Shown piece by piece: positions 1 to 63,400 of a stretch of DNA of 64,000 nt; position 1 is the first letter of the stretch; every line of letters starts with the position of its first letter. Origin of the DNA: Telopea speciosissima (Eukaryota > Streptophyta > Magnoliopsida > Proteales > Proteaceae); contig NC_057919.1 in NCBI RefSeq assembly GCF_018873765.1, forward strand, positions 63,502,484 through 63,566,483. Reading direction: 5' to 3'. Position numbers and translations under genes: made by a program. The notes beneath the pieces were generated by a model, which worked only from the letters and a program-made list of their open reading frames with translations, did not search any database and had not been told where the DNA came from.

Positions 1-2697
1 TTTGTACCCAGTTTCATACTCGCATTCAAATTGTTCGCTCTGATAAAGGGGGGGAGTATATGTATGGGGGGCTTCAACAGTTTTTTACTGATCATGGCAT
101 CATCCATCAAGTTGCCTGTGTTGACACCCCTCAACAGAATGGGGTGGCAGAAAGGAAAAATCGTCATCTGTTGGAAATCACTAGGAGTCTCTTGTTTGGC
201 ATGCATGTTCCTAAGACTTTTTGGTCAGCAGCCCTTCTTACTGCTGCCTTTTTAATCAATCGCATGCCCTCTAAACTTCTTGGCTCCAAATCCCTTATAG
301 ACTTGTTGTCTCCTCAGACTTCTGCTTTCTCTCTTCCTCCTAAGGTGTTTGGATGTGTCTGCTATGTCCATGTCAATAAATGTGCTCGGACCAAGCTTGA
401 CCCCAAAGCACTCAAATGTATTTTTCTTGGATACTCCTCCTCTACCAAGGGGTATAAGTGCTACCATCCTTCTTCCAGAAGGACATTTCTCTCCAAAGAT
501 GTTACCTTCTTTGAATCTATTCCTTTCTTTACTTCTTCTCATCATCCTCTTCAGGGGGAGAATAGTGGAAATGAAGAGGTTGCTTATCCCTTTCTATCCA
601 CCTTTGCCTACTTCTCCGTTTCTGTTTGATATTGGGAAACACAAAGAAGGGGTTGTTGTTGTTGATACTAATACTCATTCAGGTAATGATGCTAGCAATG
701 AAACAGAAGGGGCTGTTGTTGTTGAAAATGGTTTTGGTAATCAGAAAGATTACCACATTACATACAAAAGAGGTGAAGGGTTGCATAATACAGGACAGAA
801 GACCTGCCAAGAGCCCTCTTTGGATCCTCATCCTGAGCTCCACTGACCTCATTCAGGTGATATCCCTTCTCCTCCCTTTGATTTAGACCTTCCGATTGCT
901 GTTAGAAAAGGAAAGAGAGCTTGTACTAACCCTATTTCCCAGTTTGTTTCTTATGATGCTCTCTCTCTCACAAGTCTTGCTTTCACTGTTGCTCTTTCTT
1001 CTGATTCCATTCCCAGGAATCTCACTGAAGCTATGTCTGACCCAAAGTGGAAGCAAGCCATGTCTGAGGAAATGATGGCTCTTGAGAAGAATGATACTTG
1101 GAAATTAGTAGATCTTCCCAGGGGAAGAGTCTCAATCGGATGCATGTGGGTTTATACAATCAAGTATAGGTCTGATGGTGCAGTTGAGAGGTACAAAGCA
1201 AGATTGGTAGCCAAAGGTTATAGTCAAGTATATGGGATTGATTATCAGGAGACATTTGCTTCTGTAGCTAAACACAATTCTATTCGGGTTCTTTTATCAT
1301 TGGCAGCCAATAGGGATTGGCCCCTATTCCAGTTGGATGTGAAGAATGCGTTCCTCCATGGTGACTTAGAGGAAGAAGTATACATGCAGCCTCCTCCTGG
1401 CTTCAAGTTCCCTTTAGCTGAAGGCAAGGTGTGTCTCCTCAAGAAGGCTTTATATGGTCTCAAACAATCTCCAAAAGTATGGTTTGAGAGGTTCAGGCAG
1501 ACTATTCTGAAGAATGGATACTCTCAAAGTCAAGCTGACCATACCTTATTTACTCGGAGTAGTAATGGTACCATTACAGCCCTTATAGTCTATGTTGATG
1601 ACATTATTGTGATTGGTAATGACAGTGTTGAGTTAGCTAGACTGAAGTCCTACTTGGCTCAACAGTTTGAGATTAAAGATTTGGGTCCCTTGAGGTATTT
1701 TTTGGGAATTGAAGTGTCACGGTCCAAGAAAGGCATCAACATATGTCAAAGGAAGTTTGTTCTTGACTTGTTAAACCAGCAAGCTCTCCTATTGAGCAAA
1801 ATCACAAACTAGGAGAAGATTGTGGTCCCCCTCTTGTTGCTGCAGGGAAGTATCAGAGATTAGTGGGGAAACTCATCTACCTATCTATGACTCGCCCAGA
1901 TATTTCTTATGCAGTGGGAGTTGTGAGTCAGTTTATACATGCCCCCAAGAATGGGCACTTGGATGCTGTATACCGTATACTTAGATGCTTGAAGTCCTCC
2001 CCAGGTAATGGACTATTGTATGCCAGGCATGATCACCTGAGGATAGAGGGCTTTACAGATGCTGATTGGGTTGGATCCATCTCAGACAGAAGATCTACTT
2101 CTGGTTATTGCACATTTGTTGGTGGTAATTTGGTTACATGGAGAAGCAAGAAACAACCTGTTGTGGCTAGATCCAGTGCAGAGGCAGAATTTAGGGCAAG
2201 GACACATGGAGTTTGTGAACTTATATGGTTGAAGCGATTAGTTCAAGAGTTAGGGTTTGCTGCAAATGATCCTATGTGGCTCTATTGTGACAACAAGGCA
2301 GTTATAAGCATTGCTCACAATCCGGTACAACACGATAGAACTAAGCACATCGAAGTGGACCGGCATTTCATCAAGGAGAAAATAGACTCTGGCTGTATTT
2401 GCACTCCTTTTGTGAAGACAGGTGATCAATTGGCGGACATCTTTACCAAAGGACTTTTTTCTCTCCAGTTTGGTACCCTATTATGCAAGCTGGGAATGCA
2501 TGATATTTATTCTCCAGCTTGAGGGGGAGTGTTAGAGTTTATATATTGTAAGGGTATTTTAGGGACTAGTTAGTTTACTAGTTGCCTTATGTTGTAATTC
2601 TCCTTTTTCCCTTTTGCCTCTCTAGGGAAGAGTATGTAATTTGTTCTATTCTCATTAGTGAAGTAATATAGGTGTGTGAGAGACATTCTCTCTAACA
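1..2697 (+). mobile_element. Ty1/copia LTR retrotransposon, 3' part (integrase to 3' LTR)
   Basis: The window opens inside the element. Read in order on the plus strand are the end of the integrase (60-629, with the copia-typical GVAERKNRHLLE), the reverse transcriptase (1033-1812, with YVDDI) and the RNase H region (1863-2522, with the tail motif DQLADIFTKG). A purine-rich tract at 2521-2529 precedes the 3' LTR. The 5' LTR, gag and protease lie outside the window. The element is a fossil: the coding region is spread over several frames, with roughly three or more breaks. It lies upstream of, and on the same strand as, the PP4R2 exons, so it probably sits in an intron or the 5' region of that gene; this is inference. 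Confidence 0.93.
2530..2697 (+). repeat. 3' LTR of the left-edge copia element
   Basis: It starts TGTTAGAG directly after the purine tract GAGGGGGAG and ends CTCTAACA, an 8-bp perfect terminal inverted repeat of the TG...CA type. The length of 168 bp is short but normal for some copia lineages. The other LTR is outside the window, so the right boundary rests on the inverted repeat alone. Confidence 0.75.
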
Positions 2698-11877: not shown

Positions 11878-12971
11878 AAAATGGAAAATGGTTTCGTCAA
11901 TAAAGAGTACATATGGTTAGAGTGGAGAAAAAAAGTTATCAGTATGGATCCACATGGTTAGAATATGAGACGATTTGGATAATAAACTTGAGGATTGCCA
12001 AGTGAATAGTTAGCTATGCAACCTTTTGCAGTGGGTACTTTATTATAAATTCAAGAGAAAATGATACTGTTATCATGCATTTGCTTTGCTAGCACTCTCT
12101 CCTTGACATATGAGGCCCCTTATGTGTGAATCGTGTAGTGCCCCCCCTCCTATATTCTTATTGGCTTAGCGTGGAAGATTCCATCTCACAACAGCAATGT
12201 ATCGATCCTTTGTCGTAAATTTAAATAAGTTTCCCTAGACTGCATGGGTCACAGTTAACTGACCATGTGGAAGCGTATTATTGGTGCCATACAAAGTGGT
12301 GTGGGTTAGCCATGTGTCAAATTTTAGACTCAATTCAATTATCTATCCTCTTACTTGTTATCTTCTCATGTATTTCTATGGTTTTAGAAATTTTATTTGT
12401 CACTAGTCCAAAGGGAAGGTCTGAGACTTGACATGTTAGTGAAGATCTTGAGTCTACCTGTCAGACAAAAGTTCACCTATATTTAACTACCATTTCAAGT
12501 TAATGTCTAGATATGGCTGAGTTTATCAAGTTAACGTGAAATGGATTTGTGGAGTCAAAAAGACTCAAAAAACCAAGCCAAATTACAGCAAGTTTTAAAG
12601 GAAATCCAAACTCCAAAGAGAAACCCAGTTGATCCCTGAGTTTTCATGTTATTGACTGCTTGATTTCTTACTTAATTTCCTTCTTCTTAACAACTACTTG
12701 TCTAATTTGCAGAAGAGATCAAGAGTGATCCATAGCAATGGCAATTCCACATATAACATCTTAATTTTTGAAGCTAAAACCATGGTTCACAAGTACATTT
12801 CTGATATATAGCTATTCTCTTCCATGTGGAATGTAAAATCAGTTGTTGCAGGAAAGAATAAGTAATGGTGAAGATGTATAGTATGTTTGACGAGTATATG
12901 TCAAGAACAGAAACAGCAAAACTCTCCCCCTGAAGTCCTCCATCAGAACTCCATCTCAAGTACCTCAACAA
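11878..12971. other. Intergenic space downstream of the SWEET gene
   Basis: No exon or element is recognised. The stretch closest to 12972 will hold the 3' untranslated region of the SWEET gene on the minus strand. Confidence 0.5.
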
Positions 12972-19109: not shown

Positions 19110-20837
19110 TGTTAGCAAGACTGAAATTAAGAGAATGGCTTGAGTGAATTGATCTTCACACTCAGCTCCTTCATTTATAACATTCACTTATAAGGCAGAA
19201 TTACAATATTGTCCCTGTATAGCCAACTATGCTTATAACAGGGAATAAATAAAGAAAAAAACCAAAATACCTTTATCGGGTTACATAACTCAACACTCCC
19301 CCTCAAATTAGTGCATAGATATCGCACATGCCCAACTTGACTAGACTAGGATGAAATAATTTTCCACTTAACCCTTTAGTGAATACATCTACAAGTTGAT
19401 CATCAGATTTCACAAAAGGTATACAAATCTGCCCACTTTCTAACTTCTCCTAGATGAAGTGTCTGTCAATCTCCACATGCTTGGTACAATCATATTGCAC
19501 TGGATTGTGAGCAATGTTGATCGTTGTTTTGTTGTCACAGTACAACATCATTGGACGATGAACAGAACCACCAATATCCTAGAGTAAGCTCTGAAGCCAC
19601 AATAGCTCACATATGCCCTAGGCTATGGCACGGAATTCTGCTTCAGCTCTGGACCTAGCCACCACAGTTTGCTTTTTACTTCACCATGTGACAAGGTTAC
19701 CTCCTACAAAGGTACAATAGCATGAAGTAGATTTCCTGTTAGGGTTACCACCCCAATCAGCATCTGTGTAAGCCTCAATGCGAAGATGATCATGTGGAGA
19801 TAGGAGAATCCCTTTCCCTGGAGCTGACTTCAAGTAGTGGAAAATACAAAGAACAACAACCATATGGGTGGAGTAGGAATCATGCATGAACTGACTGACC
19901 AAGCTAACTGCAAATGCAATGTCTGGTCTAGTGTGGGAGAGATAGATTAGTTTTCCCACCAACCGTTGATAGCGCCCCTTATCAAGAGGATCACCATCCT
20001 TTTCTTGTAGACGAGTAGTAGCCTCCAAAGGGGTGTCACATGGGTGACATCCTAACAACCCAATCTCTAAGAGTAATTCCAGAACATATTTCCTTTGGGA
20101 GAGAAAGATGCCTTTGGGAGAACGAGCAACTTCAATCCCAAGGAAGTACCTAAGCTGTCCTAGATCTTTTATTTCAAATTCTTGTCCCAAGAAAGCCTTT
20201 AGGTGAGAAAATTCATCTGCATCATTGCCAGTCACCATTATATCATCGACATATACGATAAGAAGAGTGACCTTATCTCCATTTCGCTTGATGAACAAGG
20301 TGTGATCAGCATTGCTCTGTTTGTATCCTACAGAGATCATTGCTTTATGGAACCTGCCAAACCAAGCCCGAGGAAATTGTTTCAGCCCAAATTTTCCCAT
20401 GAGTCTTGTCACAAGAGAAACCTAGAGGAACCTCCATATAAACTTCCTCCTCCAGCTCTCCATGAAGGAATGCATTTTTCACATCCAATTGTTGCAAATC
20501 CCACCCAAGATTGACAACATATGATAGCAAAACCCGAATAGTGTTCAATTTTGCCACTGGGGCAAATGTCTCCTGATAATCAATCCCATAGGTCTGAGTA
20601 AAGCCCTTGGCCACCAGCCTGGCCTTATATCTATCCACTGTTCCATAGCATGTTAGCAAGACATAAATTAAGAGAATGGCTTAAGTGAATTGATCTTCAC
20701 ACTCAGCCCCTTCATTTATAACATTCACTTATAAGGCAGAATTACAATACTATCCCTGTATAGCCAACTATGCTTATAACAGGGAATAAATAAAGAAAAA
20801 AACACAAAATACCCTTATCGGGTTACATAACTCAACA
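19110..20837 (-). mobile_element. Short Ty1/copia element with both LTRs and target duplication
   Basis: LTRs lie at 19110-19295 and 20651-20837, each starting TGTTAGCAAGAC and ending CTCAACA. The flanking 5-bp target duplication is AAAAC, at 19105-19109 and 20838-20842. Between them the minus strand encodes reverse transcriptase ([32 protein letters not shown]) and part of RNase H. A purine tract lies next to the left LTR, as expected for minus orientation. At about 1.7 kb it is far shorter than an autonomous copia and is broken: gag, protease and integrase are not seen. The LTRs differ at roughly 4% of positions, suggesting an insertion about one to three million years old at usual plant rates. 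Confidence 0.9.
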
Positions 20838-21343
20838 AAAACAAAGGAGATATTCAGAATTATAATAACTACAGGGGCATAAAGTTAATGACCATACGAT
20901 GAAACTATGGGAGAGTGTCATTTACGCTCACTTAAGAAAGGAGAATACTATATCGGAAAACCAATTCGGATTTATGCCAGGAACATCATCAATGGAGGCA
21001 ATTTTCTTATTAAGGAGACTAATGGAAAGATACAGAGAAGGCAAGAAAGATTGTCATATGGTCTTTATAGGTCTGGAAAAACCCTACGACAGAGTTCTTA
21101 GAGAGCTAATCTGGAATATATTAGAGAAGAGAAGAGTGTCATGTAAGTACGTAAACATAATTAAAGATATGTATGCTGATGTGGCGACTAGCGTTAGAAA
21201 ACCGGGGGCAAAGTAGTGAATTCCCAATCTCAAGTGGGTTACACCAAGGATCAGCCTTGAGCCCCTATTTGTTTGCACTTATCATGGATGACTTAACCAG
21301 GAGCATACAAGGAGAGGTCCCATGGTGTATGATCTTTGCAGAT

Positions 21344-21614
21344 TGTTATAATATCAGAAAATAATTAACCAGACCAGAGGAAGAAGAAGAAGACAGAAGA
21401 AGAGAAGACAGGAAGGAAACCATGCAAACCCCAATAGGGAAAAGGGCTTGCGGTAGAACTGAATGTTCTATCGCAGGTCATTGACTAAATTTATTATGTT
21501 TAAAAACAATAATACTGATCGAACAAAATTGCCCCTACATAAACCGTAATAGTAAAAGACAGGAATAAATAAGAGGGAAAGACACATTTGACCCTATAAA
21601 CACTTATTTTAATA
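21344..21614 (-). repeat. 3' LTR of the 21344-26487 copia
   Basis: 271 bp, matching 26209-26487 along its length. In minus orientation it follows the purine tract GGAGGGGAGTAGGGGAG. The outer end reads TGTTATAATATCAG on the plus strand. Confidence 0.9.
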
Positions 21615-24600
21615 CTCCCCTACTCCCCTCCAAGCTGGAGCATATATATCGCCCATGCTCAGCTTGCTACAACAAGACCGAAAAGCAGGGGCAAATAGGG
21701 ACTTTGTGAACACATCAGCAACTTGATCAGACGAGGTAACAAAGGGTGTCTCAACCAACTTCTTCAAGACGGCGCTGCGAACAAAGTGACAATCCACTTC
21801 TATATGCTTAGTCCTCTCATGAAAGACCGGATTACTAGCAATATAGATGACTGCCTGGTTGTCACAAAACATCTTCATAGGGGTTGAGACTGAAAACCCC
21901 ATCTCAAGTAGGAGAGACCTAATCCACATCAACTCTGCAGTGGTATAGGCCATAGCTCTATACTCTGCTTCAACACTAGATCTGGCAACTGTGGTCTGTT
22001 TCTTGCTTCGCCACGTCACTAGATTTCCTCCAACAAATGTACAATACCCTGTAGTAGATCGACAGTCACTAGCAGAACCTGCCCAATCTGCATCTGAGTA
22101 GGCAACAAGTTCCCTATTTTTATTTGGGCAATAAATCAGCCCCTTCCCTGGGGCTCCCTTCAAATACCAAAGAACCCGAATGGCAGCATCCCAATGAAAC
22201 TTACAAGGGGATTGCATGAACTGGCTGAGAACCCCAACAGCATAAGATATGTCTGGGCGAGTGACAGTCAAGTACAACAACTTTCCAACGAAGCTTCTAT
22301 AGGAGTGGACGTCCTTAAGACCTTCACCATCATTAGAGCCCAACTTGTGATTAGGATCCATAGGAATATCAACTGGTTTTGCAGCAAGAATACCAGTTTC
22401 AGTCAAGAGGTCCAACACATACTTCCTTTGGGATAGGCTGATTCCTTTTTTACTTTTGATAACCTCAATCCTAAGGAAGTAGTGAAGCTGGCCCAAATCT
22501 TTAGTCTGAAAATTCTGATGCAAATAATTTTTCACCTCCTTGATCCCACTCTCATCATTTCCTGACACAATAATGTCATTAACATAAACAACAATGACGA
22601 CCAATTTCTCTCCTTGCCGACGAGCAAATACAGAATGGTCTGAGAAGCACTGAGAAAAACCAAAACCAGTCACAATGGAACTAAACTTCTCGAACCATGC
22701 TCGGGGAGACTGTTTCAGCCCATAAATGGCCTTGTGTAGTCTACACACACGCCCACTATTCTCCCCCTGAGCAACATACCTGGGCGGTTGCTCCATATGG
22801 ACCTCTTTGAGTAAGTCACCATAAAGAAAAACATTTTTAATGTCCAACTGGTACAAGGACCAATCAAAATTTACAGACATAGAAATAATGAGGTGAACAG
22901 AGTTCAGCCTAGCCACAGGAGAGAAAGTCTTAAAGTAGTCAACACCATAGGTCTAGGTATATCCCTTAGCAACTAGACGGGCTTTTAGCCGCTCAACAGA
23001 ACCATCAGAATGATACTTAATAGTGTACACCCACCGACACCTGACTAGGTCTTTACCAGGAGGTAAATCCACCAACTCCCATGTATGACGAGTCAATAAG
23101 ACATCCATTTCCACATCCATGGCTTGCTTCCAAGCAGGGATAGCAAGAGCTTCAGTGTGGGTACGAGGAATGGTATAAGTAGACAAGGAAGTAGCAAGAC
23201 TAAGATGGTAGGATGGAAGATGAGATATAGAAACAAATTGCTCAATGGGATAGGCAACTATAGATTTTTGAGTACATGTGCGTTTACCTTTCCGAGTAGC
23301 AATAGGTAAGTCATCAGGATCTGGATCAGCTGGTAAGTCAAGAAGAGCAGGTAAATCTGGATCTCCACCAAAGGTTGAGGATGGTATAGGAAGCGATGTA
23401 GATGGATCAGTATTATCTGGATGGAGCTGCCCAATGTGCCTCTTGCACCGATACACCTATAGTGGAGAAGTGGATATGGGAAAAACAGCAGGGATAGGAG
23501 GAGGATCAGACACAGTTAACGGATCACTAGGCACAGTACGGTGATCAGAAAAATAAGATGTACCTTCAAAGAAGGTTACACATGCACTAACAAACTGCCT
23601 GCGAGTCAGAGGGTCATAACACCTATATCCCTTTTGAGTCCTAGAGTAACCCAAAAATATGCATTTGGTGGACCGAGGGTCCAATTTATCACCAGGAAGA
23701 TGAAGGTTATGAACAAAGCAAGCACACCCAAAAACTCGAGGAAGCAAGGTGAAAATCGAAACACCAGGGAATAAAATTGAAAACGGAGATTTATCAACAA
23801 GGACAGACGAAGTCATCAGGTTAATCAAGAAGCAAGCAGTAAGAACTGCATCGCCCCAAAAATGTTTGGGCACATGCATATGCAACATGAGAGCCCAGGC
23901 AACCTCAAGTAAATGCCTATTTTTTCGTTCCGCTACCCCATTTTGTTGAGGAGTGTAGAACAACTAGTTTGATGAATCATTTCGTTAGCGACACAAAAGG
24001 AAGATATCTCGTTTTGTACAAATTCCAACGCATTATCAGACCGAATTTTTTTTTTATTTTTTTTGGTAACTAATAGAAGTATTAAATTGAGTCTTTATTT
24101 CATTGCAAAAACTTTGAAACACATGTAAAAATTCAGACCGATCCTTCAAAAGATACATGGTTCGGGAATGGTCATCCACAAAAGTGATAAAATACCGAAA
24201 ACCATGTCTATTACTTGCACGACAAGGACCCCACACATCACTATGCACTAAAGAAAATAAGGACGTACTACGAAGCATAGAACGAGAGGGATAAGTAGCA
24301 CGGTGATGCTTACCCAACTCGCAGCCCTCACACTCTAACTTATCTAAAGATTTAAACTGCGAAAATAAAACCTTTAATCTAGACAACGATAAATGTCCTA
24401 GCCTACAATGCCACTGAAAAGGAGACTCTCCACCAACAGCAGTAGTAGCAATCGAGGCAGATGGAGAAACACCATGTAGATAATATAGTCCATTCTTCTC
24501 ACACCCTCCACCAATCTTCTTCCTCGTGTGAAGATCCTGAAAAATACAATGAGAAGGAAAGAAAGTTACTGAGCAGTTCAAATTTTTAGTAAGTTGACTA

Positions 24601-26208
24601 ACTGAAAGGAGACTTAATGGAAATTGAGGAACATGTAAGACAGAGGAAAGGGGCAGGGTAGAATTAAGACAGACAGTGCCATGCCCAGTAACAGGTGTGG
24701 AGGAACCATTGGCCACAATAACCGATGGAGTGTGAGAATCAGATGAAATAGAACTAAAAATGGAAGACTTAACAGTCATGTGAGCGGAAGCCCCCAAATC
24801 TATGATCCAAGGTGTGGAAGCAGTAGAAAAGAAGGCAGCTGGTGTACCTACATGGGCTAATGTGCAGCGGAGGAAGATGACCCATAAGTGGAAGTGGATG
24901 ACTCGAGACTCTTGATACGGCGCATCAATTGTTGCATCTCATCACGAAGGTTAGTGGATGAATCTCGCCCGGCTGAACCACGGCCTCCAGTAGTAGTAAA
25001 AGCAGAATTTTCCTTAGGAGTAGTGTCAGGGTTGGAACTAGGGGAAACAATGCGCTGCAGCTTGGAGTAGGTATCATTCAATGTAGGGATAGATTCACTA
25101 GCAAGTAGATGTCCTGTCACATTCTTCAAATTAAGATTTAAACCAGCCAAGAACTTGGATACAAAAAACTCATTTCTCTGGGCTTTCAATTTCTCAACAT
25201 TAGTAGTAAGCGGCTGGAACACATTTAATTCTTCCATCATACCCTTAAAAGCACTATAATACTCCTGAAGAGATTTATCGGATTGTTGAAATTGAAATAA
25301 CTTCTCATAGAGGTCAAAGATACGTGTCATGCTCTGCTCATGAGAGTATGTCTCCTTGAGGTCATCCCAAACTCCCTTGGCAGTGGTATGGAACATGACA
25401 TTGGCAACAATATCCGACTCCATACTGTTCCATAACCAAATCAGAATAATAGCATTCTCCTTCCTCCAGGGATTACAGGTGGAGGATTAGAAGTAATATA
25501 GCTAAGTTTGTCCTTAGCTATGTTGTAGACACGGACAGTTTGTGCCCAAAGTAAATAGTTAGAATTACCCTTCAATTTGATGGAGGTGATCTGAACATTG
25601 AAATTATCATGGGGAGTCTTTGAATCAGCCATAGTGAACCACACTCTTCAAGAATCGATCAGGGAAACAAGTGGAGTCAAGGGACAGCAATCGACACTGA
25701 AGAGAAAATTAGAATAGCAGCAATAAACCAGCCTTCAAGGAATAAAAAATAAGGGCAGTCTTCAGCAGAGTAGCCAGGCAACAAGCAGCAACCAACTAGC
25801 AACTCACAACCAGAAGAAGCCAACCAACCAAAAAAAAAAATGAATGTCAAGGTTTTGGAGGAGAAAATTCAGTAGCAATCAACCATCAAAAATATAGCAG
25901 AACCACAGAACTTCATGACAAAACACAGAGCTTCAACAACACTCTTCCCATGTGTGATCGAGAACTGTCAGGGTTTTCTCTGGAGATCGATCCTTGCAAC
26001 AATAATTGTGGTTGATGTAGACATTCAAGCAACAACAAGTAATAGGTAGATATAATTAAAATCACTCCATTAAATATTGATAGGAGTGTATTTAAGGCAT
26101 AATAGAAGCAGCTATGGGTGGCTGCACACCACAAGAGGAAAACGACAAGGAGGGATCAGAAGAAAATCGAAAAGAAACTCCAATCTGATTAAGGAAGCTC
26201 TGATACCA

Positions 26209-29898: not shown

Positions 29899-32403
29899 TC
29901 ACCAGTAATCACCACAAGAGCAGTGCCCATCTATGAAATGATGGAAACGGTTAGCATCTCTGACAATGATCTCCCTCCTAACAATCTTCGAAATATACTT
30001 TGTCACAGTATGACAGTCATTACAGACACGAAGATTCTTCGTGATCCTTATCAAGCTCCCGGATGGGGTATTTATAAGTGCAAATGCAATTGCTAATCTC
30101 TCACTATGGCCCCACAGAAGCTTCACCTTCAGCTGCTTGTCGATGTCAAGAATAACACAACTAGTGTCTGGCATGTAACCTAAAGCCTCTATCTGTATCC
30201 TCAAATTCTCCAACATGTGAGAAATTTCTACCCAATATGGATGTGAATCATCCCTAGCAAAAAATGCATGGACCCGATTTCCTATTTCGGTCAAGCAGTA
30301 TCCAGGAGTTTTCCTAAGCCCTTTCTTCCTCATAAGATCTCTTACATAATCTACTTCACTCCACCTCCCTCCTTCAGCATATATATTTGATAACACAATG
30401 TAAATTCCAGGGTTCATAGTATCTAAACTAAGCAATTTATCTGCAGTTCGGATACCCATATCAATGTTCTTATGAGTTCGGCATCCACTAAGCAAAGACT
30501 GAAGAACAAGGTTGCCCGGTTCAAATGGCATTTGTTTGATCAAGGCTTCAGCTTCTTCAAGACGGCCTGCTCTACTGAGAAGATCAACCAAGCAAGCGTA
30601 GTGCTTTTCTCTCGGCGAAATGCCATGGTCTGTGGACATGCTCTGGAACAAATGCATCCCCTCTCTGACCATTCCTGAGTGGCTACAAGCAGACAGAACA
30701 GAAATGAAGGTAGTTTCGTTTGGTTGGACTTCCTTCTCTTTCATCTGATTAAAGACTCTAACAGCTTGGTATCCATTTCCATGTATGCCATAACCAGTTA
30801 TCATAGAATTCCACAGAACAACATCGTTGGGTATGCAGCCGTTGTTGAATAATCGCTCTGCAGAGTTTATAGTTCCACACTTGGCGTACATATCAATGAG
30901 GGCTGTCATGTTAACTACATCAAACACAATTCCATGCCGTAGCAAATGGGCGTGAACACTCTTTCCTTTCTTCAAAGATCCCAGATGCGCACAAGCATGG
31001 ATCAAACCAACGAGAGTGAAAGAATTTGCAGCAACTCCCTCCTCTTGCATCTGGCTAAATAATTTCAATGCATCCTCTGCATGGCCATTTTGTGCCAGTC
31101 CTACCAACAATGCTGTCCATGAGATCACATTCCTCTCCTTCATCCCATTAAAAACAGAAGTTGCTAGATTTAAAGCACCACATTTAGCATACAGATCAAC
31201 AACTGCAGTCGACACAATGAGATTCGATTGAAAGCCTCTTCTAAAAGCACAACCATGAAGGATTTTCCCACCTTCCAAACAACCTATCTGAGCACAGATC
31301 TGAAAGAGGCTAAGAATTGTAGCTGAGTCAAATACAATGTCGTCCGATGTGAATAGACGGAAGAGCTCAAATGATTCAAAGATTAATCTATTCTGCACAT
31401 ATCCTGAAAGCATGGCATTCCATGAAACCAAAGTCCTTGATGGCATCCTATCAAACACCTGCCTAGCACTTTTAGTGTCACCAATTTTACCATACATATC
31501 AACCAAAGAAGTAAGAACCAAAACATCACCATTCAATCCCAATCCAATCACAAATGCATGAATGCATTTCCCAAGTGCTGAATTTTTTATACCTCCACAC
31601 ACCTGGATCAAGTTTGAAACAGTTACTGCAGTTGGTATAATCCCAGCAACCCACATCTTGAAAAACAATTCAAAAGCCTTATCTAGGCAACCCGACTGCA
31701 CATAACCTCCAATCATTGAATTCCAACAAACAACATCTTTATGAGGCATTTCATTGAACACCCTTCGAGCTTCCTCAATTTTGCCTGATTTCACCAAGAA
31801 GCCTATCGCTGAACTCCCAAAGAAACGATTATTTACCAGACCATTATTCACGGCGTCTCCCATTATTATATTACCCATTTCAAAATCTGACAAGCATGTG
31901 CAAGCCTTGAGTGCCAAAGTAGAGGTGCAACCATTGGTTTTTAAATCGCGGGATTTTATCATCTGATACAACTCAAGGGTCTCCATGAAACGCTCATTTT
32001 TAAGATACCCACCCATCATGGCATTACATAGGAAGACCGTCGGGTTACATATTTGATCGAAGACTTTGCGGGCATCGCTCAAAGTGCCCAAATTGGAATA
32101 CGTATTAACAAGTCTGGTGGCGACAAATTCATCTGAGGAAAGAGAGTTGATAATGATCTGGGCATGGAGCTCTTTAACAGATAAAAGACTTATGGAGGAT
32201 TCACGCAAGCGGGATAGCAATAGTTGCATGATGGGTATCGATTGATTGAGTCTAAACTTGAACTTGAACAGGGTATCTTCATCTTCATTTGCAGATGCGA
32301 AGATGGTGGAGAAGGGCGAAGAGGAGGGGGGTTTATTCCGTATCTTCTTGGGTTTGGGTATTATAAATCGATAGGTACGCGGAAATGAACAAGTAGAAGG
32401 CAT
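29899..32403 (-). CDS. DYW-class pentatricopeptide repeat protein (PLS subfamily)
   Basis: A single intronless frame of 834 residues. The first ~60 residues are rich in Ser, Pro, Arg and Lys (SFPRTYRFIIPKPKKIRNK), fitting an organelle transit peptide. From about residue 75 to 640 there is a run of PLS-type PPR repeats (DVVCWNSMIGGYVQSG, TLVSWNAMLSGYVQN, NVISWTALLVGLAQNG, DVVLWNSMITGYGIHG), then the E/E+ region (about 640-735) and a complete DYW domain. The cytidine-deaminase-like zinc residues are all visible: HSE at 766-768, CNDC at 794-797, a His pair at 821-822, CSC at 828-830, and the final GDYW. Such proteins bind single organellar transcripts and perform C-to-U editing. The target site cannot be told from family knowledge. 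The gene looks intact. Confidence 0.96.
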   Translation of the reverse strand: MPSTCSFPRTYRFIIPKPKKIRNKPPSSSPFSTIFASANEDEDTLFKFKFRLNQSIPIMQLLLSRLRESSISLLSVKELHAQIIINSLSSDEFVATRLVNTYSNLGTLSDARKVFDQICNPTVFLCNAMMGGYLKNERFMETLELYQMIKSRDLKTNGCTSTLALKACTCLSDFEMGNIIMGDAVNNGLVNNRFFGSSAIGFLVKSGKIEEARRVFNEMPHKDVVCWNSMIGGYVQSGCLDKAFELFFKMWVAGIIPTAVTVSNLIQVCGGIKNSALGKCIHAFVIGLGLNGDVLVLTSLVDMYGKIGDTKSARQVFDRMPSRTLVSWNAMLSGYVQNRLIFESFELFRLFTSDDIVFDSATILSLFQICAQIGCLEGGKILHGCAFRRGFQSNLIVSTAVVDLYAKCGALNLATSVFNGMKERNVISWTALLVGLAQNGHAEDALKLFSQMQEEGVAANSFTLVGLIHACAHLGSLKKGKSVHAHLLRHGIVFDVVNMTALIDMYAKCGTINSAERLFNNGCIPNDVVLWNSMITGYGIHGNGYQAVRVFNQMKEKEVQPNETTFISVLSACSHSGMVREGMHLFQSMSTDHGISPREKHYACLVDLLSRAGRLEEAEALIKQMPFEPGNLVLQSLLSGCRTHKNIDMGIRTADKLLSLDTMNPGIYIVLSNIYAEGGRWSEVDYVRDLMRKKGLRKTPGYCLTEIGNRVHAFFARDDSHPYWVEISHMLENLRIQIEALGYMPDTSCVILDIDKQLKVKLLWGHSERLAIAFALINTPSGSLIRITKNLRVCNDCHTVTKYISKIVRREIIVRDANRFHHFIDGHCSCGDYW

Positions 32404-32640
32404 GAAGACGAGGTGGGAAGCAAAGAGATTTGGGCTTTAAAAGCGGAAGTCATCGACCCCATGAAAGCGCGCTATTCTCATCTGCCTCCCTCGATCCAAA
32501 TGAAGAAGAAACTAATCCACCATTAACAGGCGCGAGGTAGGAATGTAGGATCGATATAATAAAAATTTGTAGGTACCACACAGAATTTGAATGGGACGCT
32601 TAAGAATCCGGTTAAATTTTTTGAAAATGCAAACAAAAAA
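32404..32640 (-). promoter_or_regulatory. Upstream region of the PPR gene
   Basis: The non-coding stretch just before the start codon. It should carry the 5' UTR and promoter of the PPR gene. No specific box could be assigned. Confidence 0.3.
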
Positions 32641-39266: not shown

Positions 39267-40292
39267 TCAATAAAAAATTATGCCCAGTATCCCTCATATG
39301 CCAAATGTCAAAAAGCCACCTCCCCCCACACCTTCCCAGTTTTAAACCCACCATCTACAGATAGAATATGCCTGCTGCAAATGCCAAGATAGAATAAACT
39401 GTGAGATTGCCACTTGATAGTTTCAGTGATTTCAAGAGTTCAGAGGCAGCCACCAATATTACAAAAGGGTTTGTGTGGAATTTTATCATTGGATGCAGAA
39501 AGGTGGGTTAACAGAAAATAGTTAAAGTAAACCAAAGAAGAAGAGAGAAAGAGAATAAAGCAAGCAAAAGCATCTTTGGCAAGCTCACAACCGCTTGAGC
39601 TTTTGGTTTGGCTTTCACTTTTCTGCCACCCTTCACTCTGCTTTACTCTTTGTTTTTCATTCTTTTTCCACTTGCTTTCCTCCACATTGGTTTTGCTGCC
39701 CAAAGAAGAAAGGGAACATAGAGGATCAAAGTCGAGCATTCTTACACAGAACAAAGGGCATTGTGAATAGTCCAGTTTACGTGTGAAAGTATAACAAAAA
39801 CAAAGTATGGTGCCACTGAAATCTATAGACTCTTAGCTAAACTATATGCATTGTCTCGGTCCATCATAAACCCAAAAAAGACCCATTCTGTTTTCTTACC
39901 CTTTATCACCTATATGTAAATGGGAAATCTGGGGACCAACTCATTTGTTTTGTTTATACTTAGAAAAATGAGTCTGGCCCCCTTGAAGCTTTTAAACAAT
40001 ATCTCATATATGCCTCTTTCCCTTTCTTCTTCCAGCCCCTCCTTTGGGTGACTGGTGGTGTTCAGTGATAGCTTTCTACCAAAGCATTCTTTTTTCCTGT
40101 ACAACCAAACCAAAGCCTGCCATGTGAGGAACAAAATCAGAATGATGCAAAGGACAAAGCCTTAACTATTCCTTCTTTAGCTTTTTCTTTCCTACCTGGG
40201 ATACTTCTGCTTCAGAATCAAGCTTCAGGTTTCCAGTGAGGGGCTGCTTCCTTGCAGCTTCTCACAGCAGTAAACCAAGGAGAAAAGGGACT
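38825..40292. promoter_or_regulatory. Intergenic and upstream region of the MCTP gene
   Basis: No exon is supported. It contains a poly-T tract (39065-39080) and a (TA)n tract. The last several hundred bases before 40293 should hold the MCTP promoter and 5' UTR. No box could be assigned with confidence. Confidence 0.35.
39230..39263. repeat. (TA)n microsatellite
   Basis: About 17 TA units following an A-rich run. Confidence 0.95.
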
Positions 40293-43200
40293 ATGAAGCT
40301 GGATGTGGAGGTGGTGAGCGCGCATGATCTTATGCCCAAAGATGGTGAAGGATCCTCCAGTCCCTTTGTAGAAGTTGACTTTGACAACCAAAGAAACAAA
40401 ACCCATACTGTCAACAAAAATCTCAACCCTGTCTGGAACCAAAAACTCCTCTTCAATTTGGATGACCCCAACAGCCTCCATCATCACAACATTGTGTTCT
40501 GCGTCTACAACGAGAGGAAATCATTCCCTGGTTGCAACTTCCTTGGAAAGGTATGGATTCATGAATTAAATATAGTTAGAAAAGGGGAGGAAATTTTGCA
40601 ATGCTTCCAATTAGAAAGGAAGTGGTTTTTCTCATCCATCAAAGATGATATTGGCTTGAAATTTTATATTTTACCTGAATTTGAACCCAAATCTCCCCCA
40701 CCATACGATCAAGTGATCAATCTTTACCATCACCACCTCCTGTTTCTGATAATCCTACAAACATTCTTACTACTACAGATAATTCAGCTGCTTCTGGTAC
40801 TGTGGCCACTACTAGTAACAGTAACCCTGCAACTCTTGCTACTTCTGAAGCTGTGCCGTTGTCGATACTTCTAAGGCTACTGCAGTGACTGAACGTTCTA
40901 CTACAACAGTTGCTGAAATCAACAGCTCTGCCCCCCAGCTCTGCTTCTCAAGAGCCAGAGGAGATAAAGGAGTCAATTGAAGTTAAAGTTGAGACAACTC
41001 AATACATACACAAGCATGCAGCAGGTCAACCCACAAGCCCATCCTATCAACCAAGAGGACTACAAATTAAAGGACACCAGCCCCCGCCTAGGAGAGCGAT
41101 GGCCAAATGGAGGAGTACGTGGCAGTGGAGGGTGGATGATGAGTGGAGAAAAATTCACCAGCACATATGACCTTGTAGAGCAGATGTTCTATCTGTATGT
41201 TCGAGTGGTCAAAGCCAAAGATCTACCCCCCAGTGCCATCACTGGAAGCTGTGACCCATATGCAGAGGTGAAACTTGGTAACTATAAAGGGAAAACAAGG
41301 CACTTTGAGAAGAAGACCAACCCTGAGTGGAATCAGGTCTTTGCATTCTCTAAGGACCGAATTCAGTCATCAGTGCTGGAGGTGTTCGTCAAGGATAAAG
41401 AGATGGTGGCCAGAGATGACTATCTTGGCAAGGTGGTCTTTGACATGAATGAGGTACCAACTAGGGTGCCACCAGATAGTCCCTTGGCACCTCAGTGGTA
41501 CAGATTGGAGGAACGACATGGAGAGGGCAAGGTCAAAGGTGAGATCATGCTAGCAGTTTGGATGGGAACACAGGCTGATGAAGCTTTCCCAGAAGCCTGG
41601 CACTCAGATGCTGCCTCTGTTCATGGAGAAGGTGTTTTCAACATCCGATCAAAGGTCTACGTCTCACCTAAATTATGGTACCTAAGGGTGAACGTGATAG
41701 AAGCCCAAGATGTACAACCAACGGACAAAACCCGTCTCCCTGAAGTTTATGTTAAGGCTCAGGTAGGCAACCAGGTTCTCAAAACCAAGATATGTCCTAC
41801 TCGTACCACCAATCCCATGTGGAATGAAGATCTAGTTTTTGTAGCAGCTGAGCCTTTTGAAGAACAGTTGGTGCTCACAGTTGCAGATCGTGTGCACCCA
41901 TCCAAAGATGACTCATTAGGGACGATAAGTCTGTCGCTCAACATATTTGAGAAGCGCCTGGACCACCGGCCTGTTCATTCTCGTTGGTTCAACCTTAAAA
42001 AATTTGGGTTTGGGATATTGGAAGGAGACAAGAGGAACGAGCTCAAATTTTCAAGTAGTATCCATCTAAGAGTTTGCCTTGAGGGTGGTTACCATGTGCT
42101 TGATGAATCAACGATGTATATAAGTGATCAACGCCCTACTGCAAGGCAGCTTTGGAAGCAACCAGTTGGCATATTGGAGGTAGGCATCTTAAGCGCACAA
42201 AACCTCCCCCCAATGAAGACGAAGGATGGACGGGGCAGCACAGATGCTTACTGTGTAGCAAAATATGGACAGAAGTGGGTAAGAACCAGAACAATAATTG
42301 ACAGCTTTAGTCCCAAATGGAATGAGCAATATACATGGGAAGTGTATGACCCCTGCACGGTAATCACACTTGGGATTTTCGACAACTGCCACCTAGGTGG
42401 CAGTGAGAAACCAGCTAGTGGAGGAGGCCCTACAAAAGACCCAAGGATTGGGAAGGTAAGAATTCGACTATCAACTCTTGAAGCAGATCGGATTTACACA
42501 CACTCTCATCCCCTCCTAGTTCTAAATACATCTGGGGTAAAGAAGATGGGGGAGCTCCAGTTAGCAGTTCGTTTCACTTGCCTATCACTAGCTAACATGA
42601 TATACCTCTATGGTCATCCTCTATTGCCAAAAATGCATTACCTGCATCCTTTCACAGTGAACCAAGTAGACAGTCTTAGATACCAGGCAATGAGCATTGT
42701 AGCGGTGAGGCTTGGACGGGCAGAGCCACCACTCAGGAAAGAGGTTGTTGAGTACATGTTGGATGTGGATTCTCATATGTGGAGTATGAGAAGAAGCAAA
42801 GCAAACTTCTTTCGGATCATGTCACTACTGTCAGGTTTTATATCTGTCAGTAGATGGTTAGATGATGTTTGCCACTGGAAGAACCCAATCACAACAGTAC
42901 TGGTTCATGTTCTGTTCTTAATACTGATCTGTTACCCAGAACTGATACTTCCTACAATCTTCCTCTATATGTTCCTCATTGGGATATGGAACTACAGGTT
43001 CCGCCCAAGGCACCCACCACACATGGATACTAGACTTTCATGGGCAGAAGCAGTTCACCCAGATGAGCTAGATGAGGAATTTGACACCTTCCCAACATCT
43101 AAGCCCCAAGACGTAGTCCGGCTGAGGTACGATCGGCTAAGAAGTGTAGCCGGAAGGATACAGACAGTAGTTGGAGACATGGCGACACAGGGGGAAAGAT

Positions 43201-43418
43201 TTCAGTCCCTGCTCAGCTGGAGAGACCCTAGGGCAACCAGCCTCTTCATAGTCTTTTGTCTGTTGGCTGCTGTGGCACTTTACATTACACCATTCAGAAT
43301 AGTGGCTCTTGTCACAGGCCTAGTCATGCTCCGCCACCCTAGATTCCGGAGCAAATTACCTTCTGTACCCAGCAATTTCTTCAAGAGATTGCCAGCTCGG
43401 GTAGACAGCATGCTTTGA
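40293..43418 (+). CDS. MCTP: MCTP (multiple C2 domain and transmembrane region protein), QUIRKY-type, linker not in one frame
   Basis: 40293-40712 encodes an N-terminal C2 domain (MKLDVEVVSAHDLMPKDG, SPFVEVDFDNQRNKT, NLNPVWNQKLLF). 41022-43418 is in the same frame and encodes three more C2 domains: C2B about 41190-41540 (GSCDPYAEVKLGNYKGKTR), C2C about 41680-42000 (LPEVYVKAQVGNQ) and C2D about 42160-42560 (GRGSTDAYCVAKYG). It ends with the PRT_C membrane region (ITTVLVHVLFLILICYPEL, SLFIVFCLLAAVALYI). Known members tether ER to plasma membrane at plasmodesmata and affect cell-cell signalling. The linker 40713-41021 stays coding-like (SLPSPPPVSDNPTN, EPEEIKESIEVKVETTQY) but shifts frame several times, first just after an imperfect GATCAAGT/GATCAATC duplication. 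Either the linker is mutated (or mis-sequenced), or it is spliced out: GT at 40713 and AG at 41020-41021 keep the frame and give about 938 residues. Family genes are usually intronless and about 1,000-1,080 residues long. Confidence 0.9.
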
Positions 43419-43700
43419 GGAGGTACAAACAAGTCCATATCAAATTATTGATCCCATTTCTGTGATCTGTTTCATGGCTACATTGGAATCCTTTCTAGTT
43501 TCACTGTTACAAACTGTTCTTTTTCATGTAGAGTCAATGGTTTTACATTTCCTCATGGTGTCCTGTGAAGATGTGTGTACATTACTTCAAGGCAACAGCC
43601 TTTGCCCCAATGTTGAAACTTCCTAATGAAATAATCTGCTTCATTAATTTGCGCTAAAGGATATTTTGTTCCCCCCCCCCCCCCCTCCCCTTCCATTTTA
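43419..43700 (+). other. 3' untranslated region of the MCTP gene and a C tract
   Basis: No coding sequence. AATGAAATAATCTG near 43625-43638 could serve as a polyadenylation region. A run of about 16 C at 43671-43686 follows. Confidence 0.4.
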
Positions 43701-44790
43701 TCCAATTTATCACAGGAATAGACAGTCAACGTAATTAAGCTTGTAACTGAATTCCAAACCATCTTTATGAAAAGGATTTCAGCTAATAAGAAAAGAGCAG
43801 CAGGGAAAGCAAGAATCTGAAGCCCAACCATAACAACACTTTCAAAGAAGCAAACTGTCGTTCACGTGTGCATTTATACCTGCTTTTTTGCTCCTTTTCT
43901 TTCTCTTTTTCATTTTTTGGGGAGGGGGACGGGGGTGTCATCGGAGGCAAGAATTTAAAGATAACCCCTGTGGAGTGTGGAAACCCAAGTAATACATGTC
44001 AATCTTTGGAAGGAATGGCTTACCCAGATAATTTCCTGCAAAACTCTTTGTGCATCTCTTTTAGCCAAAAGAGTAGTTGCAGGCAGAGTAAAGGGTAAGG
44101 GTGAATAAAATCTACCATTTCCACCTGACACTCCCGAGAGAGACAATCAGAATCGTCCCCAGAATGATAATTACACCAAACAATTTAGCAGATGAAAGGG
44201 TAAAACATCAATAAGAACAAATGAAATCAAAAGAGAAACCCTGAAAAATTAATGGTTTGCCGAAGAACTGAAAACAGGAGAGCAGAGACCGAGAACCTGA
44301 GCATGGCGGTCTCGGATTTGCGCTTATTGACCACGGGCTTCTTGATGTCTTCAGCAGGAATAGTAGTTGGGAGCTTCACGGCGGGTTCTCAAGTGCATGG
44401 TGCATACCCAAGTTGAGTATCGGATCACGGTTGGTTACTGCCAACTCTCGGTTTCCTCTCCTTGGGACTTGGGACTTGGGACTTGGGACTTGGGAGCCAT
44501 TTCATCCGAGTAAAACTTCCAAATCTCTCAGATCGGTCTCCCACTCTCCCTCCTCGGTCTTCCTCTCCATTCACCACAAAGCCCAAGAGAGAAGAGACAA
44601 CCATAAGATTAAACTAGGAAACAAATGGCGTTAAAATTCCCTCGATTTCTTATTTTGCCATAAAGAAATCAGTAATCAGGGTTTTTCCCAAAAAAGAAAA
44701 AAAAATTTAATCAGGGTATCTCATTGCTCCCGTGCTGGTGTAGTAATTACATGACCATGCGGTAATCTCTTGTCTTTTTTCTTTTTTTAA
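43701..44790. other. Intergenic, no supported gene
   Basis: Contains a 7-bp tandem repeat (listed separately) and a 37-codon open frame at 44303-44416 with a good initiation context (GAGCATGGCG) but no homology I recognise. The opposite strand of the same stretch is also open, so I do not call a gene. Confidence 0.4.
44461..44496. repeat. 7-bp tandem repeat, CTTGGGA x5
   Basis: Five consecutive copies of CTTGGGA. Confidence 0.95.
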
Positions 44791-60479: not shown

Positions 60480-63400
60480 TTGATAAGTCCAACCGTTTTT
60501 ACACTCATTGTGAAAAACAAAATCATACCATTGATACTTGTTGGACCAAGCACGGCAAGCCAGAGTGGGCTAATGAGTTGGCTAATACTGCTATGACCGA
60601 TCACTCTATTGAGAAGATACTTCTGGCGACTCAGTGTCTGCACCTGGAGCTTCTTCCACTGTGTCCATTCCTCGAGATGATTACACTCAGATACTCAAAC
60701 GTTTGCACCAACTTGAGGCTACTACAGCCACTCTAGCTCACACAGGTAACTCAGCCCTTCTTACTACTACCACCCCCTGGATCATAAATTTTGGAGCTTC
60801 CTCTCACATGACTGGTAAGGCTGATTTATTTACTTCTATTTCTAAACTTCGTCAATCTTCTCCTGTCATCTTAGCAGATGGTTTCTCTACTGCGGTGACA
60901 GGTCATGGTACTATTTCTCCTACTTCATCCATGACCTTGTCATCAATTTTACATGTTCCTCGCTTACATTTATCCTTCTTGTCTGTTTGTCAGCTTACTA
61001 AATCTCTAAATTGTTCTATAACCTTTTATCCATCTTATTGTGTTTTTCAGTGGACCTTCAAACAAGGAGGACAATTGGTGGCGGGGTTGAGCGGGCTGGT
61101 TTGTACTATTTGGACAGCACAAGACCTTCTACTGCAGCTGCTACATCTTCTAGTGGTTCTTCTCCTCTACAATGGCATCAACGTATCGGGCACCTGTCCT
61201 TGTCCAAGCTACAAATTATGGCGTGTGAATTAGGAATACATCATAGATCTTCTTTTCTCTCTTGTAGTATGTCTAGTAGTAGTTATTTATTTCATTTAGT
61301 TCATTTTGATATTTGGGGTCCGTGTCGTGTCAGTAATAGGTTTGGTTTTCATCATTTTGTCACGTTTGTGGATGTTTATTCTCGTTCCACTTGGGTCTAT
61401 TTGTTGAAAGACCGGTTGATGCCGATCCAAGCATCTACAAGAAGAAGAAGCAGCCCTAAGATTAGGGCCAAGTGTTAGGAGCCTTAGTTTAACTTTTAGT
61501 TTCCATAGTTTATTTTTCAGTTTAATTGTAAACTTAAATTGAACCGGTTCAGACCATGGTCCAATTTAAGTGACTTATTTCTATTGGTTGTTAGGAGATT
61601 TATTTCTATTGGTTGTTAGGCAATTTTTAACTTGTTTTAGCTTTTATTTAAGTTGTCCCACCCCTCCACGATTTATGTTGAGGGAGTGCCTTGCTTTTGT
61701 AATAGAAATCAGCTTTGGGATTCAAATTCCTAGGGTGACTAGGTATTAGGCCTTTGGTCAAGTATAAATAAAAGCAATCGTGCGAGGCTCCCCCACAATT
61801 TAGATTTCAAAAACTAGTTTACTGCTTGCTGCCTTGCTCCATCATGAGTGTTGCCTTGTGGATTCTATCAAGGTGAAGGGATTGGTGGATCTCCAATCGA
61901 CTCCTTGCATCTTGTAGATCGGGAGGACCTATTCTCTATCTTCAAGCTGCTGCCATTGAAGACCTGCAATTCCAAATAAGTTACTGTTATTGTTAGCCAC
62001 CCCTTTCTTCTCCCAATCCTCTAAACCTAGTCCCATCGCTCCCCATCATCATTCCATCCATAAACTCAATCGATCCATCAAACCCCTAACCATCTACATT
62101 CTGTCCAGACCATTTCCACCATCCAATTTCATTCAAACTTTAACAACAGGACCCTCACATCACCCCCTCCACTCGATCCTAGTTTCAGCCCCATCCCTCC
62201 TTCAAAACCCTAATTCCCCTCTACTTCCATTAAAACCCTAAAACCCTAAATCCTACCTGAACCAATCCAGCCATAAAAAACCTTCCATATTACACTCGAA
62301 CCACCCCCTGTCCCTTGCACTCGATCCAAGGCCCATCCTAAAACTACCTTCCTAAACCCTAGTTTCACCTATTTTTCTATTTCCCAAAACCCTAATTTTC
62401 TATTTTTGAATTTCTTATTCAAACATCACTAAACCTAGCTCATTAGACTCCTAAAAACCTGCCTAGCTTTACCATATAAGACGCATCCCTATTATCTTAA
62501 CCGTAAACCTAAATTTAACCTAAAATCCTCAATTTTGCCCCCTTCGAGCTAACAGTTCAGTAGGTCCTGGTTACTTGGCTCCTGGTGGATCTTCTATCTA
62601 TCTAGGAGACTAGGACTACATTACCAGTCTGAATTTCCTACTGTACTAAAAAAATTTTATCAAGAAATAAATCCACTTGGGTCTATTTGTTGAAAGACTG
62701 GTCTGAGTTTCCTACTATACTCAAAAAAATTTATCAAGAAATAAAAACTCAGTTTGATGTGTCTATTAAGATTTTCAGATCTGATAATGCACTTCAATAT
62801 GTTCAATCGGATATTTCTCAATTTTTCTTCGATAATGGTATGATTCATCAGACAAGTTGCTCTTACTTGCTGAACGTAAGAATCAACATCTATTAGAGGT
62901 TGCCCAATCTCTTATGATTCACATGCATGTCCCCAAACACTTTTGGTGTGATGCTATCCTTGCTGCCTGTTTTTTAATTAACCGTATGCCATCCTCCGTG
63001 ATAAATAATAAATTCCCGTTTTCTGTTTTTTTTCCTAGTGTTCCGCTCTTTTCTATTCCACCCAGGGCGTTTGGTTGTGTCTGTTTTGTTCAGATTCTAC
63101 ATTCCCATGTTGATAAATTATCACCTAGGGTTGTTAAGTGTATCTTTCTTGGTTATTCTTGTACTCAAAAGGGATATAAATGTGATAATCCTTTGTCTCA
63201 TAAGCAGTACATTAGTGTTGATGTCACATTTTTTTGAAAATACACCATATTATCCTGCTCCTACTTCTCTTCCTACTGCCGATTCGGATATTCAAGATCC
63301 TCCCCTTCCTTTTGTGATCCCACTGAGTACTACTAAACCCTTGCAGGTGTACCAGCGCCACAAGAAGACCGTGCCCTCTACTAGTGCTGCCCCTGCTCCA

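Follow-up and report, generated by a model that had tools for sequence, protein, structure and literature searches.

A broken C2A–C2B linker, possibly lost by splicing, in a plant MCTP gene of Telopea speciosissima

Arabidopsis MCTP3/4 are three-C2 MCTPs, and MCTP6 and QUIRKY/MCTP15 are four-C2 members of the same family. In seed plants, the intronless fraction of MCTP genes ranges from 0.64 to 1.00, and all three grape MCTP genes are annotated with one to three introns (PMC7325108); in maize, 15 of 18 MCTPs are intronless (PMC9347167). The characterization of the family as 'normally intronless' in the first-pass annotation of the locus analysed here therefore needs a qualifier. In a 2026 cryo-ET study of moss plasmodesmata (PMC13197227), C2A, carried on a disordered C2A-B linker of 80–150 residues, is proposed to act as the tether between desmotubule coat and plasma membrane. 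Conversion of coding sequence into introns has been described for human retrogenes (PMC3565874) and in Paramecium (PMC9612004). Among the titles and opening abstracts listed by searches of a paper library, we found no report of an MCTP linker turned intron.

The present gene lies in a stretch of 64,000 nucleotides (the window) on a chromosome-size contig (C4) of an 823-Mb genome assembled in 1,287 contigs. Like the four-C2 MCTPs of Arabidopsis and nine genes of its own genome, it displays the order C2A, C2B–D and PRT_C; unlike them, it has a broken linker, and its C2A and C2B are without a common unspliced frame. Like the three-C2 MCTPs, two of which are found on contig C10, it has an ORF spanning C2B to the membrane region (C2B-TM) that could start at a similarly placed ATG, whereas, unlike the C10 genes, it is preceded by an intact and apparently still constrained C2A in the same orientation. 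Finally, as in intronization (PMC3565874, PMC9612004), inner coding sequence drifts between flanks that appear selected and are in frame. In contrast to those cases, splicing is putative here and the broken part is a disordered linker, which is perhaps dispensable.

Gene layout and the MCTP family of the genome

The sequence at 40293-43418 (+) identifies a plant MCTP gene, for a membrane protein of the plasmodesmata type, having the three to four C2 domains and the subsequent PRT_C membrane region of this family. Its main parts are as follows.

40293-40712 (+): C2A module, a clean ORF, with a Pfam C2 match over residues 2-103, to about 40601
40713-41021 (+): former C2A–C2B linker, coding-like in three shifted-frame pieces, with non-coding-like evolution
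41016-41018 (+): ATG in frame with C2B (MQQVNP...), kept in the duplicate copy on contig C777 (MQQINP...)
41016-43418 (+): C2B-C2C-C2D-membrane module of 800 aa, with three C2 domains and a full PRT_C; dN/dS of 0.146 against the C777 copy

The 800-aa ORF from the ATG at 41016 matches PRT_C positions 1-156 of 156, and one further C2 domain, C2A, is encoded in the ORF upstream. C2B-TM (41022-43418) sits inside the longer open frame 40968-43418. C2A is 40–55% identical to its counterparts in the nine four-C2 genes of the genome. The open C2A–C2B linker of a four-C2 MCTP is, however, interrupted in the genomic sequence by stops and frame changes at 40713-41021, although a spliced message could still encode a four-C2 protein.

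The genome contains 15 PRT_C loci. Thirteen are complete, covering no fewer than 155 of the 156 positions; the other two (C4:4574047-4574295 and C8:58123773-58123964) are fragments with an in-frame stop each and look like decayed MCTP pieces. Nine of the 13 complete MCTPs have C2A in the same ORF, two are the three-C2 genes on C10 (774 and 777 aa), whose start (MQRPPPPEDYSLKETSPHLG) is placed like the ATG at 41016, and two are split into separate ORFs, namely, the window gene and the gene on C777. The comparison set of 11 MCTP ORFs used below consists of the longest open frames of the other complete genes and excludes the two stop-bearing fragments. A free-standing C2A with a partial linker is present in a 202-aa ORF within C1:76556000-76563000, the C2A match itself being at C1:76559384-76559794 (minus). 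It lacks C2B-TM and is very close to the C2A of a complete MCTP about 27 kb away, and is thus apparently a partial local copy.

Elsewhere in the window, ORF pieces at 847-1809 (+), 19684-25486 (-) and 60613-61230 (+) match Copia-type retrotransposon domains (RVT_2, gag, Pol_BBD). An intact 844-aa PPR protein with an E motif and a DYW deaminase domain is encoded at 29902-32433 (-) and is likely an organelle RNA editing factor.

Frame changes in the linker and the copy on C777

As the first-pass annotation had observed, C2A (40293-40712) and C2B-TM (41022-43418) are both open and share frame 0, and the 309 bp between them read as protein in successive frames. Read straight from C2A, frame 0 meets its first stop at 40872-40874. 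The coding-like signal runs through three pieces, in frames 2, 1 and 2, before returning to frame 0. A detector that assigns frames from codon usage, and for which the nine intact MCTP linkers of the genome served as training set, supports this order; it placed 39 of 42 pieces correctly when one gene at a time was left out. It assigns 40742-40850 to frame 2 (score 0.85), 40851-40934 to frame 1 (0.46) and 40940-41015 to frame 2 (1.06), the other frames being negative in each case. On the shortest stretch of the middle piece alone (12–13 codons), the margin is small, 0.14 versus -0.06 in C777. The breaks are distributed as follows.

40707-40722 (+): imperfect 8-bp duplication GATCAAGT/GATCAATC, at the first frame change (0 to 2)
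40747-40824 (+): five stops in the frame of the middle piece, at 40747, 40750, 40813, 40816 and 40822
40850-40862 (+): -1 shift between the first and middle pieces, common to C777
40931-40962 (+): C run and adjoining stretch, 32 nt shorter than in C777; frame change 1 to 2
41014-41015 (+): site at which the window is without 62 nt found in C777; frame change 2 to 0

The duplication, already noticed in the first-pass annotation at the point of frame loss, falls largely within a 12-nt stretch that is missing from C777. Four frame changes within 309 of 3,126 bp would arise with a chance of about 1e-4 if changes were uniform, and the 11 other complete MCTP ORFs (32,127 bp) contain none, so the concentration of breaks in the linker exceeds chance. 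Errors of sequencing or assembly in a repetitive linker, an alternative put forward together with the original observation, could account for differences in short homopolymers, such as the six C at 40931-40936 and the T and C runs in C777. Yet slippage in homopolymers does not explain differences of 32 nt and 62 nt, the probability of four errors within the 309 bp is about 3e-8 at the 95% upper error rate given by the 11 unbroken ORFs, and the central shift, together with the stops, recurs at a second locus. We therefore consider errors a very improbable source of the breaks.

That second locus is an unplaced 14.9-kb contig, C777, carrying the other MCTP broken between C2A and C2B, which is the sister copy of the window gene (support 100/100). 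C777 was rejected as an allele or haplotig, since it aligns to the window over 39333-44353 only, at 73–85% identity, and dS in C2B-TM is 0.317. Other MCTP pairs of the genome have dS of 0.295 and 0.304, indicating a like age, and a third pair has 0.504. C777 stops at 12413, 12410, 12353, 12350 and 12344 match those of the window at 40747, 40750, 40813, 40816 and 40822, respectively. The frame of the middle piece, in which these five stops lie, is C2B's own frame in C777; it is not in the window, because the window has the 32-nt and 62-nt shortages besides.

Since the -1 shift and the five stop positions are common to both copies, the linker break probably predates the duplication (dS 0.32). 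The ancestral age we infer for the shift hangs on indel polarity. With frames read by hand, one of four polarity choices, in which the 32-nt difference is an insertion in C777, allows an intact ancestor, and this choice is disfavoured by the frame detector. It is also conceivable, if improbable, that the gene was intact at duplication and that each linker was broken later, the constraint on C2A being a memory of its former state. Several breaks are indeed specific to one copy, namely, the two shortages in the window and, on the C777 side, a lost T behind the C2 domain and an extra C, and C2A has an intermediate dN/dS (see below). However, recent decay of this kind has to accommodate the shared shift and stops and a linker gap count equal to the level of non-coding DNA, and would require gene conversion or an unusual indel polarity.

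Constraint on the two modules and drift of the linker

Between the window and C777, gaps per 100 aligned bp amount to 4.04 upstream of the gene, 3.54 in the linker and 4.28 on the 3' side, and to only 0.29 in the C2A core and 0.08 in C2B-TM. C2A up to 40625 has no gap versus 13.8 expected at the non-coding rate (P about 1e-6). The linker, in turn, has 9 gaps versus 10.5 expected at the non-coding rate and 2.1 expected at the rate of three intact linker pairs of like age (P 3e-4). The nine include a portion of one gap that extends across the linker boundary, and adjacent gaps may have arisen together; merging split gaps into six events still gives P 0.019 against the intact rate. In the three intact pairs, all nine linker gaps are multiples of three and C2A is without gaps, whereas seven of the nine gaps between the window and C777 linkers are not multiples of three. 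Moreover, the first linker piece has its substitutions spread evenly over the three codon positions (7, 7, 6).

In C2A, 28 of 112 amino acids differ between the two copies versus medians of 48 and 56 in neutral simulations (P at most 0.0004). Neither copy has a stop in C2A, which is weak evidence when taken alone (3–6% under neutrality). The dN/dS of C2A is 0.54 (bootstrap range 0.30–1.10, with 4.1% of resamples at or above 1), and two intact pairs are tighter, at 0.245 and 0.079. By contrast, C2B-TM has a dN/dS of 0.146 versus 0.139, 0.120 and 0.115 in other pairs. Substitutions by codon position are 9, 16 and 21 in C2A, a mild third-position excess, and 50, 34 and 135 in C2B-TM. At columns invariant in nine other MCTPs, C2A is changed at 4 of 33 in the window and 5 of 29 in C777, and C2B-TM at 3 of 186 and 5 of 186, respectively. 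Beyond codon 86, pN/pS of C2A nears 1 (0.170/0.190 and 0.150/0.150); we claim no end-of-constraint boundary there, the differences being few (22.5/10.5 before codon 86; 10.5/2.5 and 7/2 after). C2A thus seems relaxed yet not dead, being free of indels to 40625 and having fewer amino-acid changes than under neutrality despite its looser dN/dS, and the linker looks unconstrained. It seems, furthermore, that C2A stayed translated although it has no unspliced frame to C2B. If so, the linker would be removed by splicing or C2A would be made as a product of its own.

The latter alternative amounts to gene fission: a three-C2 MCTP would be made from the ATG at 41016, its transcript starting or being spliced past C2A, and C2A would be either a small separate product or a slowly decaying remnant. 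In C777, the C2B ORF has its first ATG at the equivalent position, which is also where the three-C2 MCTPs on C10 start. The normal constraint on C2B-TM agrees with such a fission, as do the looser C2A and its larger share of changed invariant columns. A remnant silent since before the duplication should, however, show indels and about twice the observed amino-acid changes. In addition, a tblastn search with four C2A proteins over some 6 kb upstream of the C10 genes gave no C2A remnant with E below 0.5, matching only those genes' own C2B, C2C and C2D. Nor is the tail that follows C2A on read-through kept between the window and C777. On balance, fission is a real but somewhat doubtful possibility. 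A C2A-less protein, one of the alternatives named in the first-pass annotation, is likewise conceivable.

The read-through of C2A itself (frame 0, 40293-40871, 193 aa) ends in a strongly hydrophobic tail with a Kyte-Doolittle value of 2.53 over 19 residues. We do not take this for a membrane anchor on a C2A protein: the frame is not common to C777, and translating the nine intact linkers in frame +1 gives values of 1.88–3.15 in four of them, so that the tail is probably a by-product of Thr/Ser/Ala-rich codons.

Candidate splice sites and a possible exon-to-intron change

The first-pass annotation suggested that an exon may be turning into an intron, spliced from 40713 to 41021. The general part of this suggestion is supported, in that a formerly coding linker evolving like non-coding DNA between two selected modules in one frame is what an exon turned intron predicts, with the reservation that C2A is under weaker constraint than in intact pairs. 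The particular splice sites do not fare as well. Removal of 40713-41021 does leave one open frame (938 aa by arithmetic), but this says little, since the region contains 508 GT-AG pairs with a spacing of 60 nt or more, of which 82 keep the frame. Scored with a splice matrix (maxima 11.8 for donors and 16.6 for acceptors), the donor-like site at 40713 (CAA/GTGATC) reaches 3.8 and the acceptor-like site at 41022 (ATGCAG/C) reaches 2.3. Furthermore, the donor falls in a stretch missing from C777, and the linker, with 27% T, is not T-rich. Nor is the pair special: in each of the nine intact genes, 10–71 frame-keeping pairs score at least its 6.1, counted over spans of 543–708 bp, which are open by design and extend into the C2A end. 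The following candidate sites are among those kept in both copies.

40551-40552 (+): best donor-like GT of the region (AAG/GTATGG, 8.9 with this matrix), identical in C777
41020-41021 (+): acceptor-like AG (ATGCAG/CAG), found in C777 also

Combined with any of the conserved acceptors at 41022, 41025 and 41073, the donor-like site at 40551 would keep the frame. Its use would shorten the Pfam C2 match by 17 residues at the end, and as it also encodes the conserved FLGKV motif, it may have a coding role alone. Another strong donor-like site, at 12502 of C777 (7.3 with this matrix), has no counterpart in the window. Removal by any of twelve homologous GT-AG pairs would leave open frames in both the window and C777.

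We propose the following course of events, to which we attach a chance close to even. The ancestor of the window gene would have been a four-C2 MCTP in which a -1 frameshift arose in the disordered C2A–C2B linker, probably before the duplication that yielded the C777 copy. C2A and C2B would then have been without a joint unspliced frame and the linker would have drifted like non-coding DNA, both modules remaining under selection in both copies. The linker would be spliced out of at least part of the mRNA, turning from exon into intron and giving a four-C2 protein with a shortened linker, and the actual splice sites probably differ from 40713/41021. We prefer splicing because one promoter and one message suffice and because all breaks fall between the two modules. 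A bolder version, which we regard as unlikely, is that the entire linker of this otherwise single-exon MCTP is now a spliced intron, which reached fixation ahead of a genome-scale duplication and was kept in both copies with different splice sites. If true, the tether from the desmotubule to the plasma membrane would have been shortened by the change of its disordered part from exon into intron.

With C2A and the coat-forming part retained and the readable linker lost, the gene offers a natural test of the tether model (PMC13197227): it points either to an MCTP with a short tether or to a C2A that is no longer attached. If the gene has undergone fission, it would illustrate the route by which three-C2 MCTPs arise. 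Collectively, the locus would represent either a dated exon-to-intron change or the step by which three-C2 MCTPs lose C2A.
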